From Anaerolineales bacterium (lineage in GTDB: Bacteria; Chloroflexota; Anaerolineae; Anaerolineales; Villigracilaceae): a stretch of 46,368 nucleotides of DNA. How positions within the stretch are numbered: the first letter of the stretch is position 1; every line of letters begins with the position of its first letter. Positions 7,615-16,875 of the stretch are shown piece by piece. The position numbers and the translations under genes were made by a program. Where the stretch lies: contig JAGVAO010000150.1 in the NCBI GenBank assembly GCA_020060235.1, positions 1-46,368 on the forward strand. Direction: 5' to 3'. A model generated the notes under the pieces. That model worked only from the letters and a program-made list of their open reading frames with translations. It was not told the origin of the DNA and did not search any database.

Positions 7615-8814
7615 TTATTTTCCTGAGAGATATTGCCGAATCATAAGCGCCGCAGTTGCCCCTTCCCCCGCCGCCGAGGCCGCCTGTTTGGTAGAGCCAG
7701 CGCGCACGTCGCCCGCCGCAAACAAGCCAGGAATTGAAGTCATGAGGGTCTTGTCCGTGACCACCGAACCCCACTGGTCAAGGTCTGCTTTGCCTTTGGC
7801 CAAATCGCTGTTAGGGGAAAAACCGATAAACACAAACACACCATCGTAATGCCACTCTTTTTGGTCGCCAGTGGCGCGGTCTTCCACAATCACGGCATCC
7901 AATTGGTTTTTCTTAACACGCATCTCCTTCACAGCATGGTTGACCGTGACCGACATATTCTCTTTCTCTGCTACTTTGTCTTGCAATATCTTGCTGGCTT
8001 TCACCTGCGGCAGGAATTCGACAATATCCACCTGGCTGGCAAACCTGGTCAGAAACAGACCTTCCTCGAAGCCGCTATTGCCGCCGCCCACTACCAGCAC
8101 TTTCTTTCCTTTGTAAAACGCCCCATCGCAGGTGGCGCAGAAATGGACATTCGCACCAACCAAATCATCCTCGCCTGGGATTCCCAGGCGGCGATAGTGT
8201 GCGCCGGTTGCGAGCAATACCGCTTTCGCGCCATATTCCGAACCATCGGCGGTGCGCACACACAAGTATTGCCCATCCTGGTTAATATCTGTCACATCCT
8301 GCGCCTGCAAAATCTCCGCTCCGAATTTTTGCGCCTGGCGGGTCAGCCTCGCTGCAAATTCTGCGCCGGGAATACCTTCATCGAATCCGGGGAAATTATC
8401 CAGTGTTTGAGTGATTCCCGCCTGCCCGCCCAGTCCGGCTTTTTCGATAACCAGCGTTTCCACACCTTCGCGTGCCAGGTAAAGCGCCGCGGTTAACCCG
8501 GTCGGGCCGCTGCCAATGATGATGGCATCGTAAAACGTCCGCTTGGCGCGGGTATTCATTCCCAGTTTCTCAGCCAACTGCGCATTGGATGGTTCTACCA
8601 GTATGCCGCCATCTGGAAAAACAATGGTCGGGATACTACGAAAGCCCTTGTTGACCATTTCCACAAATGCCATAGAGTCGGCATCCTGGTCAATGTCCAC
8701 ATAGTTATACTGCACACGTTGTTCGCCAAAAAACTGCTTCGAGCGCTTGCAATCTGGGCACCAGCCGGTGCCATACAGGGTGATAATTTCAGGGGTCAGC
8801 CGAGGGTCGCTCAT
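7615..8814 (-). CDS. Glutaredoxin-thioredoxin reductase fusion
   Basis: 399 aa. Residues 1-85 form a glutaredoxin-like domain with CPDC (Cys19-Cys22). Residues from about 95 are a low-molecular-weight thioredoxin reductase: FAD site GSGPTG (101-106), redox pair CATC (226-229), NADPH site GGGNSG (243-248) and a C-terminal GLFAAGDVR FAD segment. NADPH electrons would pass through FAD to CATC and then probably to the fused CPDC domain, making a self-contained disulfide reductase in the cytoplasm. Typical TrxR is ~310 aa, so the extra length is the fused domain. It is co-transcribed with a thioredoxin-like protein. Confidence 0.9.
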   Translation of the reverse strand: MSDPRLTPEIITLYGTGWCPDCKRSKQFFGEQRVQYNYVDIDQDADSMAFVEMVNKGFRSIPTIVFPDGGILVEPSNAQLAEKLGMNTRAKRTFYDAIIIGSGPTGLTAALYLAREGVETLVIEKAGLGGQAGITQTLDNFPGFDEGIPGAEFAARLTRQAQKFGAEILQAQDVTDINQDGQYLCVRTADGSEYGAKAVLLATGAHYRRLGIPGEDDLVGANVHFCATCDGAFYKGKKVLVVGGGNSGFEEGLFLTRFASQVDIVEFLPQVKASKILQDKVAEKENMSVTVNHAVKEMRVKKNQLDAVIVEDRATGDQKEWHYDGVFVFIGFSPNSDLAKGKADLDQWGSVVTDKTLMTSIPGLFAAGDVRAGSTKQAASAAGEGATAALMIRQYLSGK

Positions 8815-9471: not shown

Positions 9472-10680
9472 ATGAACCCGAACCTGAATCCACCCCTTAT
9501 CGTTACCCTGCTGCTTGCCACCCTGTTTTTGCCTGCCTGTTCCCCGGAGCAGACTCCAACATCCACGCCCCCCCCCATCCCGTCAGTGAATACCGCTCCA
9601 GTTGCATCCCACACCATCTTGGAATATGAACCCCCGCCCACCGGGGCAGAATCCGAGTTCAAGACCGATTTCAGTAAACACACCATCCCCTACAGCGAGG
9701 TTCTTTCCGGCGGTCCGCCCAAAGACGGGATTCCAGCCATAGACAACCCGCAAACCATCAGTGTGAGCGAAGCGGATGAGTGGCTTGAACCCGTCGAGCC
9801 TATCGTGCTGGTGCGGGTCGGCGGCGAAGCCCGCGCCTATCCCATTCAGATTTTAATGTGGCACGAAATCGTCAACGATACCCTGGGCGATAAACCTTTG
9901 CTGGTCACGTTTTGCCCGCTCTGCAATACCGCCATTGCTTTTGAGCGCGTCTTCGACGGCCAAACCTTTGACTTTGGCACGACCGGACGCCTGCGCTATA
10001 GCAACCTGATCATGTACGACCGCCAGACCGAAACCTGGTGGCAGCAGGCTACCGGCGACGCCATCGCCGGTGAGTACGCTGGGGCGCAACTGCCTTTTTA
10101 CCCGGCATCCATCGTCTCATGGGCGGACTTCAAGGCTGTCTACCCCAACGGCACGGTGCTTTCGCGCGAGACCGGCTTCAGTCGTAATTATGGGCGTAAT
10201 CCCTATCTCGGCTATGATGATGTTAACCAGTCGCCTTTCCTGTATCGTGGGAAGGAAACGCCGGGGCAACTTGTCCCGATGGCCCGCGTGCTGACCCTTG
10301 ATCTGGGCGGGGAAGCAGTAGCCTACCCGTATGAAATCCTCTCCAGCCTGGGAGCGATCAACGACACGGTTGGCGGGCAACGGCTGGTGGTTTTCTGGGC
10401 TGAAGGAACAGCCTCCGCGCTGGATTCTGCCCAAATCCCAGATGGCCGCGATGTTGGCGCGGCTGTTGCCTATTCCGCCGAAGTGGACGGGCAGCTCCTG
10501 ACTTTTGAAGTCGCCGATGGCGTTTTCCGAGACAAAGAAACCGGCAGCGAATGGGATATTCTTGGCCGGGCGGTTTCGGGTACACTACAAGGAGCACAAC
10601 TGACCGAATTGCCTGCCATCAATCATTTCTGGTTTTCGTGGGCAGCTTTTCGCCCGGAAACGCGCATTTACCAGCCTTGA
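9472..10680 (+). CDS. DUF3179-family lipoprotein
   Basis: 402 aa. A signal peptide ends in a lipobox LPAC with acylated Cys23, followed by a Ser/Thr/Pro-rich linker, so the protein is exported and lipid-anchored. The body matches DUF3179 proteins: ARAYPIQIL, WHEIVNDT, and FCPLCNTA with a conserved Cys pair, then YDRQTETWW and a second RAYP-like repeat (AVAYPYEIL). The role of the family is not established. AAAGGAG precedes the ATG. The next gene, an alpha/beta hydrolase, starts 8 bp after the stop, so they are likely an operon. Confidence 0.85.
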   Translation: MNPNLNPPLIVTLLLATLFLPACSPEQTPTSTPPPIPSVNTAPVASHTILEYEPPPTGAESEFKTDFSKHTIPYSEVLSGGPPKDGIPAIDNPQTISVSEADEWLEPVEPIVLVRVGGEARAYPIQILMWHEIVNDTLGDKPLLVTFCPLCNTAIAFERVFDGQTFDFGTTGRLRYSNLIMYDRQTETWWQQATGDAIAGEYAGAQLPFYPASIVSWADFKAVYPNGTVLSRETGFSRNYGRNPYLGYDDVNQSPFLYRGKETPGQLVPMARVLTLDLGGEAVAYPYEILSSLGAINDTVGGQRLVVFWAEGTASALDSAQIPDGRDVGAAVAYSAEVDGQLLTFEVADGVFRDKETGSEWDILGRAVSGTLQGAQLTELPAINHFWFSWAAFRPETRIYQP

Positions 10681-15756: not shown

Positions 15757-16458
15757 TTACCCACTCGGAAATGCCTTTTTGAACTCAATCAGTGCTTTTT
15801 GCCCGTTACGTTCCAAGCGTTTGTAAAACAAATCCCGTTCCTGATTACGGTAATCGAGCCGCTCCACGCGAAAGCCTGCCAGTCGTTCCCCGGCTTTGCG
15901 CCGCGCCGGAACCTGAGAAAAGTACTCGATGGCATTTTCCACGCTGTGGGCGTCCGTCCAGTCCGATTTATACAGAATCAGGCCAGAGCGGGCAAAGATC
16001 CAGGTCATGTTGGGCATCGAACCATAAGCAAGATGACAGGCCCCATCAAGGGCATCAACCAAAATCGGGCGGGTCACGCCCAGTTCATCCCGCAGCAGGC
16101 GCGCATGGCGAAATTTCTGCTCCATAGAAGCCAGGTGCGGCACGTTTTCACCGGGGTGTGCCTCGTGGGTGTAGATAAAAATCGAGCCGACATCCTGCTC
16201 TGCAAATTTCTCAGCAAGCGCATTCATAGCTGGCGCCGCCAGCCCGCAGTAGGGTCAGGTAAAACTGCCAAACTCCACAATGGTATAAGCATGTTGTTTC
16301 AGGAGTTCCCCCAGACGTGTTTCCGCTTCGTTCAACTGCCACAGCGGAAAATCTGGCGCCATAGTGCCAGTCTTGGGGCTAGAATCGAAATTGAGGCATG
16401 GCTCAAATTTTTCGGGGACAAAACTATCGTAGTTATAGCGCGGCACAAGGTCGGTCAT
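15757..16458 (-). CDS. Deiodinase-like selenoprotein with in-frame UGA (Sec68)
   Basis: Two frames of the same phase (16458-16255 and from 16227) are joined by one TGA at 16257-16255. Read through as Sec this gives 233 aa. Before it stands FGSFT, after it PYCGLAAP, giving the deiodinase-type motif G-S-x-T-U-P with an extra Cys71 (U-P-Y-C). Downstream are IYTHEAHPGENVP, ILVDALDGACHLAYGSMP and IFARSGLILYKSDW, which parallel the EAHP, VVD..NACN.AYGA.P and GK..YKG blocks of iodothyronine deiodinases (thioredoxin fold). A perfect hairpin follows the UGA by 11 nt. The start overlaps the stop of the upstream gene (ATGA). It probably reduces a peroxide, disulfide or carbon-halogen bond. The substrate is unknown. 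Confidence 0.88.
16229..16243 (-). promoter_or_regulatory. Putative bacterial SECIS hairpin for Sec68
   Basis: On the minus strand, 6-bp perfect arms (GCUGGC / GCCAGC) enclose a 3-nt loop GGC. The first loop G is 18 nt after the UGA, inside the 16-37 nt range described for bacterial SECIS elements, which need a G early in the apical loop. The stem is within the coding sequence, as in all bacterial cases. Confidence 0.7.
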
Positions 16459-16790
16459 TTCTTAATCCGATCAAACATCATCCCAATAACATCTTGATGA
16501 TGGTGAAGCAGTTCAGGGTCAGATTCAAACCCTGCTTGCTCATCCAATGTTTGGACGGCCTGTTTGAGAAAATGTAGATTGGGCTTGGCCGGATCAACTT
16601 CGTTTTCCTTGAAGACCTGGGTAATTAATTGGGACAGCGCATCATCTACATTAGTGGAGTGGCCCAAACGGCGTTCCACAAAAGCGTGGTTGGTGGCAAA
16701 AAAACAAGCCACCACGCCATCGACCACTTCCTGTGGTGTTAATGACTCTTTTTCAAGCAATTCCTGAATGATTTGTGAATGTTCGTTCAT
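16455..16790 (-). CDS. Hypothetical protein upstream of deiodinase-like gene
   Basis: 111 aa from ATG 16790 (AGGCGG upstream); a longer frame reaching 16817 is less likely. Mostly helical and acidic, with no membrane segment or recognised motif; an ACFFATNHAFVERRLGH stretch is the most distinctive. Its TGA overlaps the ATG of the selenoprotein gene in another frame, so translation of the two is coupled. A partner role for the selenoprotein is possible but unproven. Confidence 0.65.
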   Translation of the reverse strand: MNEHSQIIQELLEKESLTPQEVVDGVVACFFATNHAFVERRLGHSTNVDDALSQLITQVFKENEVDPAKPNLHFLKQAVQTLDEQAGFESDPELLHHHQDVIGMMFDRIKK

Positions 16791-16803
16791 GATACCGCCT
16801 TTC

Positions 16804-16816
16804 TGATTGATAATCA
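16804..16816. promoter_or_regulatory. AT-rich dyad between divergent genes
   Basis: TGATT-GAT-AATCA, a 5-bp dyad with 3-bp spacer, lies in the 85-bp gap between the minus-strand selenoprotein operon and 6-phosphogluconolactonase. It resembles half of a Fur-type box (GATAATCAT is present), but the match is short. It could bind a Fur/PerR-like regulator of either operon. Confidence 0.3.
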
Positions 16817-16875
16817 TTCCTTTAACCAGATGTAATCATAACCTTTATTCTTACCCCGCTTGAGAAAGGAAAGCC

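Follow-up and report, generated by a model that had tools for sequence, protein, structure and literature searches.

Bacterial relatives of the animal iodothyronine deiodinases (Dio) have been described for two decades. A 2005 report on the Sargasso Sea (PMC1088965) described both selenocysteine (Sec) and Cys forms and remarked that their function is likely different from deiodination and possibly redox. More recently, a 2022 (PMC9312934) and a 2026 (PMC13188914) selenoprotein catalogue list a “Deiodinase-like protein” carrying PF00837 and a UxxC motif. On the animal side, Dio2 uses a proton relay of Ser127, Thr129, Tyr157, Glu160, and His162 (PMC11592359), and a further paper both describes the role of these relay residues in Dio and reports that in DIO1 a proximal Cys124 forms a selenenylsulfide with Sec126 (PMC9141512).

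The gene described here lies in a 46,368-nucleotide stretch of an Anaerolineales genome (“the window”) and belongs to the already known deiodinase-like UxxC family. It shares with the catalogued prokaryotic family the Sec form, the T4_deiodinase domain, the UxxC motif and a bacterial SECIS just past the UGA, although this placement follows the domain and motif description and not a comparison with the catalogue's example sequences. The 2008, 2022, and 2026 selenoprotein papers do not mention Chloroflexi or Chloroflexota in their texts, and in the accessible portions of the literature on the family we found no mention of its lineage spread, of a Sec-only close family or of linkage to DUF3179. 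What appears new, as far as the available sources allowed this to be checked, is a DUF3179 selenoprotein encoded directly upstream of the deiodinase-like gene in six relatives.

A single gene crossed by an in-frame UGA

The minus-strand frame 16458–15757 (Table 1) runs from ATG to TAA with one in-frame stop, TGA at 16257–16255. A first-pass annotation of this DNA had proposed that two frames of the same phase are split only by this codon and that ordinary annotation would call proteins of 67 and 156 aa; the first point is borne out by the sequence and by unbroken relatives, and translation with table 11 yields exactly those two products. It had also proposed that reading the codon as Sec restores a deiodinase-type active site flanked by EAHP, V-D-A, and AYG-S-MP blocks, all of which are present in the 233-aa read-through translation (VEFGSFT-U-PYCG, IYTHEAHP, ILVDALDGACH, and LAYGSMPNMTW). 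Immediately upstream, a 120-aa frame ends in a TGA (16457–16455) that overlaps the ATG of the selenoprotein gene (ATGA). The arrangement suggests coupled translation, and it shows that TGA also serves as an ordinary stop in the window. The 120-aa frame gave no confident match in Pfam or NCBIfam.

Table 1. Features of the window relevant to the deiodinase-like gene, with the evidence for each.
Feature	Positions	Strand	Evidence
Deiodinase-like selenoprotein gene, 233 aa, Sec at residue 68	15757..16458	(-)	Homology unbroken through TGA; Pfam PF00837
In-frame TGA read as Sec, U68 of GSFTUPYC	16255..16257	(-)	TGA in 77/78 relatives covering the site
Bacterial SECIS hairpin, 7-bp stem, 3-nt loop GGC	16228..16244	(-)	Folding energy, covariation, synonymous-codon test
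Cys71 codon, partner of Sec68 in U-P-Y-C	16246..16248	(-)	Cys in 72/74 aligned full-length relatives
Upstream open frame, 120 aa, likely start MNEHSQ	16455..16817	(-)	Homologues upstream in nearest relatives
DUF3179 lipoprotein-like protein, Cys form (FCPLCNT)	9472..10680	(+)	PF11376 365 bits; single copy

Relatives were collected by scanning genome contigs with search patterns that omit the Sec site, which returned 80 loci, mostly from Chloroflexota metagenome-assembled genomes. The site is covered in 78 of these and the codon is TGA in 77, a count that includes three loci with an assembly frameshift close to the site (L069, L072, and L081, which were read frame by frame) and one lying a single position off in the alignment (L084); the sole exception, L086, is a distant relative (32% identity) with TGC. 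Relatives at 41–79% identity align through the TGA without a break. The window gene differs from close relatives chiefly at third codon positions, on either side of the TGA; comparison with L007, for example, gives 14/6/37 differences at codon positions 1/2/3 before the TGA and 26/16/83 after it, and, as judged from these alignments, purifying selection is acting on both sides of the codon. A second deiodinase-like copy in L079 (3858–4532) has TGG at the Sec codon, as either a real change or an assembly error.

A covarying SECIS and a complete Sec machinery

The bacterial SECIS model, as set out in PMC13188914, calls for a loop of 3–9 nt, a stem of 4–16 bp, a spacing of 16–37 nt, a G in the first two loop positions and a folding energy of at most -7.5 kcal/mol. 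In this family the stem comprises seven contiguous pairs (positions 14–20 with 24–30, counted from the U of the UGA) closed by a 3-nt loop, GGC or GUC in most members. The window hairpin, whose GGC loop starts 17 nt after the UGA and whose energy is -11.6 kcal/mol, agrees with the model on all five points.

Since an Rfam scan of the window returned nothing at gathering thresholds, the element was tested by alignment. Across 39 distinct sequences, 90.8% of cells are paired and both sides have changed in six of the seven pairs; double-changed cells number 29, against 7.2 ± 2.1 in shuffles and no more than 9 in slid registers. Because the hairpin stretch also encodes protein, a null model was built by resampling synonymous codons from each gene's own usage (1000 runs), under which 72 genes are expected to form 302.6 ± 8.1 stem pairs (maximum 329); 476 are observed. 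Judged by this comparative test, the hairpin is conserved beyond the demands of the protein sequence. It even seems to steer that sequence at residues 73 and 77, where most members pair Met73 with Ser77 (AUG/UCC) or Leu73 with Ala77 (CUG/GCC). On its own, a longer stretch of 55 nt folds preferentially into a different structure, with a stability no greater than that of shuffled sequences, and in four divergent loci (L064, L068, L070, and L071) the stem is not kept in the window register; support for the SECIS is confined to the short hairpin and the comparative data.

The genome itself (3.99 Mb, 96.9% complete) encodes a tRNA-Sec with anticodon UCA (68.9 bits), SelB (336.6 bits), SelA (524 bits), and SelD (344 bits), so that the machinery on which the first-pass annotation had made its reading depend is in place. 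The SelD gene (G000:C97:383-1315) carries one in-frame TGA, so SelD, too, looks like a selenoprotein. Sec is commonly used in this phylum, SelA having been found in 322 of 400 Chloroflexota genomes. SelA was not found in two genomes with Sec-type distant deiodinase-like genes, G270 (tRNA-Sec 76.6 bits) and G217 (86% complete, 1040 contigs); these are probably assembly gaps and pose no conflict with the Sec reading.

The conserved UGA, the covarying hairpin, and the presence of tRNA-Sec, SelA, SelB, and SelD together support the selenoprotein that the first-pass annotation had seen as hidden by the UGA. Two other readings of the codon were weighed. Under standard table 11 translation, the UGA would be a true stop and the locus either two separate genes, the downstream one starting at ATG 16227, or a pseudogene. 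This we consider very improbable: TGA recurs at this codon in 77 of 78 relatives with both halves under purifying selection, the SECIS covaries, the Sec machinery is complete, and the split would cut the AlphaFold model (below) between the active-site strand and helix. The conserved TGA and the conservation of both halves are what rule it out. Decoding of the UGA as Trp or another residue, through suppression or an altered code, could draw on the TGG in the distant second copy of L079, yet it is more improbable still, since TGA terminates the overlapping upstream gene and the genome carries a UCA tRNA-Sec, which exclude it, and since the distant homologues of L086, L112, L114, and Mycolicibacterium have Cys at the site. 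We therefore return to the Sec reading: the sequence data strongly support a first step in which the ribosome would read UGA codon 68 as Sec by means of the UCA tRNA-Sec, SelB, and the hairpin 17 nt downstream. That the locus encodes a selenoprotein of the deiodinase-like family, in the sense of Sec decoding and a Dio-type fold and leaving its reaction aside, we regard as close to certain.

A Dio-type fold with a shortened substrate loop

The assignment to the deiodinases proposed in the first-pass annotation was upheld by domain and structure searches alike. Pfam T4_deiodinase (PF00837) reaches 35.8 bits (cut-off 27) and matches 42 of 43 aligned relatives; Redoxin and AhpC-TSA also exceed their Pfam cut-offs but rank behind it. 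The AlphaFold model (pLDDT 95.3) finds as its best PDB matches mouse Dio2 (9h48; Z 18.8, rmsd 1.9, 157 aligned) and mouse Dio3 (4tr3; Z 18.1, rmsd 3.2, 161 aligned), followed by a DsbE (Z 15.3). Foldseek likewise places Dio2 and Dio3 as the top two, and a family profile search returns Dio3 (1.2e-14) and Dio2 (2.1e-11) before ResA (2.8e-7). ResA, DsbE, Bcp, and AhpC share the same thioredoxin-like fold, and the U-P-x-C motif resembles the C-P-x-C of thiol-disulfide oxidoreductases, but these proteins score lower than the Dio proteins in both structure and profile, and no EAHP block appears in the alignment to ResA. NCBIfam NF038285 (deiodinase_rel) describes related bacterial proteins (E 7e-14 over residues 26–165), though at 52 bits against a cut-off of 250 the window protein is not a member.

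Like mouse Dio2 and Dio3, the protein has the GSxTU-P signature and keeps the proton-relay Tyr, Glu, and His. Ser65, Thr67, Tyr96, Glu99, and His101 correspond to the Dio2 relay residues, and among 74 aligned full-length relatives the first three are invariant (74/74) and the last two occur in 73. The model supports a Dio-type thioredoxin/peroxiredoxin fold in which Sec68 would start the first active-site helix, with these five residues predicted to surround it.

The protein also differs from Dio. It has UPYC where Dio has UPPF, and Phe66 takes the place of the proximal Cys of DIO1 and DIO3. The U-x-x-C Cys71 is present in 72 of the 74 relatives, with Phe in the UPPF pair, and by analogy Cys71 (U+3) would be the natural substitute for Cys124 of DIO1. 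Of the earlier suggestion that the UPYC pair may form a selenenylsulfide, the pair is thus widely conserved and the bond is plausible from the sequence. Profile alignments to Dio3 and Dio2 show the omega loop after EAHP to be 9–12 residues shorter, an extra C-terminal stretch spans residues about 183–233, and no N-terminal membrane segment was recognised, the translation having a short polar N-terminus and the model only short helices in that region. The selenoprotein looks cytoplasmic. As most of the Dio substrate loop is missing, “deiodinase” is here a label for fold and active site, from which a reaction can at most be inferred.

A Sec-only close family within a mixed superfamily

Bacterial homologues had been thought rare in the first-pass annotation; this did not hold, as one scan yielded more than 70 members and the family has been catalogued since 2005. 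The deiodinase-like UxxC family is spread across Anaerolineae and relatives, and each of the ten best matches in 400 Chloroflexota genomes has one TGA. Plasmids gave one distant Cys homologue, annotated as a deiodinase-like protein, on a Mycolicibacterium plasmid, and no relative was confirmed on viral contigs.

More distant relatives carry UPPF (the animal motif), UPIT, or Cys forms, as well as Ser, Gly, Ala, or Asp at the Sec column. Homologues had been expected to have only U or C at residue 68, and this stands for the close family, in which Sec alone occurs, and fails for the distant relatives, so that in the superfamily as a whole the position is not restricted to Cys or Sec. Judging from these sequences, Sec is apparently the only form in the close UPYC family, whereas the superfamily is mixed, with part of it working without a chalcogen. 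Loci L108–L113 (G038, G013, G185, G317, and G347), with Ser, Gly, Ala, Asp, or Cys at the column, are possibly members that lost the catalytic chalcogen. After the TGC Cys codon of one of them (L112, G317:C80) a possible 6-bp hairpin, ATCGCG-TACC-CGCGAT, was spotted by eye and is perhaps a relic SECIS.

Candidate reactions

In the chemistry we propose, the Sec68 selenolate would attack an oxidised or electron-poor atom (e.g., a peroxide oxygen, a disulfide sulfur, or an organic halogen), Cys71 would resolve the oxidised selenium as a Sec68–Cys71 selenenylsulfide, and a thiol reductase system would regenerate Sec68. A candidate reductant for redox proteins is encoded in the window, where 7618–8814 (-) is a glutaredoxin domain fused to a thioredoxin-reductase-like flavoprotein. 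FAD disulfide reductases also occur near several members; they form a large family and we draw no inference from them.

The protein could be a Sec-dependent reductive dehalogenase that applies Dio chemistry to small environmental iodo- or bromo-aromatics, as might be expected from the Dio2 and Dio3 matches at the top of both fold and profile searches, from the retained GSxTU signature and Y-E-H relay, and from the lack of Cys replacement in the close family, which is what a chemistry requiring selenium would predict. However, the Dio omega loop beside the substrate site is about 9–12 residues shorter, the Redoxin and AhpC-TSA families score above their Pfam cut-offs as well, and halogen-metabolism genes were not recognised among the neighbours examined, and we consider dehalogenation rather unlikely. 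A thiol- or peroxide-type reduction is, on balance, the likelier reaction, and we hold it with modest confidence.

Linkage to DUF3179 selenoproteins

Neighbouring genes are mostly not conserved among the relatives, with the exception of DUF3179 and clade-specific genes. In six loci (L016, L023, L030, L036, L043, and L055) a DUF3179 gene with the motif LVTWUP[IL]CYTG lies 20–72 nt upstream on the same strand and is interrupted by an in-frame TGA. The UGA of these upstream genes is followed by a conserved hairpin, CCGGUCUCGUGCACGACCGG, and in L023 two DUF3179 genes stand in tandem. The six loci are scattered on the tree (five changes) and, because their clustering is not significant, shared ancestry and repeated joining of DUF3179 are indistinguishable. 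Beyond these loci, a single DUF3179 match was found in the window genome, 5 kb from the selenoprotein gene, and in G343 the two genes lie 178 bp apart. DUF3179 occurs in 8 of 11 genomes with the deiodinase-like gene and in 3 of 20 relatives without it (Fisher p = 0.004, for hand-picked genomes with kinship ignored), a co-occurrence that we treat as a lead rather than a result.

These observations raise the tentative possibility, which we rate below even, that the deiodinase-like protein and DUF3179, a lipoprotein-like protein with a U/C-P-x-C motif, form a two-selenoprotein redox pair, e.g., with the former maintaining or using the DUF3179 chalcogen pair. The directly upstream position in six loci scattered over the tree, the linkage in the window genome and G343, and the genome comparison all point this way. 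Against it, the tree label is not significantly clustered, most loci lack DUF3179 within the flanks examined, the comparison genomes share the limits given above, and DUF3179 looks exported while the deiodinase-like protein has no obvious signal peptide, so that any direct contact between the two needs explaining. A broader proposal, which we consider doubtful, is that the UPYC protein and DUF3179 are the two parts of a hitherto undescribed selenium redox system in Chloroflexota. Close relatives of the UPYC protein would then never exchange Sec for Cys, since selenium would be required by the chemistry, perhaps the removal of a halogen or a similarly poor leaving group.

Implications

Gene callers will keep splitting this deiodinase-like selenoprotein gene in two. 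Read through, it is a Sec-only, deiodinase-shaped protein that recurs in Anaerolineae and that fold and active site place beside the animal thyroid-hormone enzymes. Its linkage to DUF3179, itself a listed selenoprotein family, is a concrete lead to function. As the proton relay is kept and most of the Dio loop is missing, the family can be used to ask which part of the active site of Dio arose first and what role it had before thyroid hormones.
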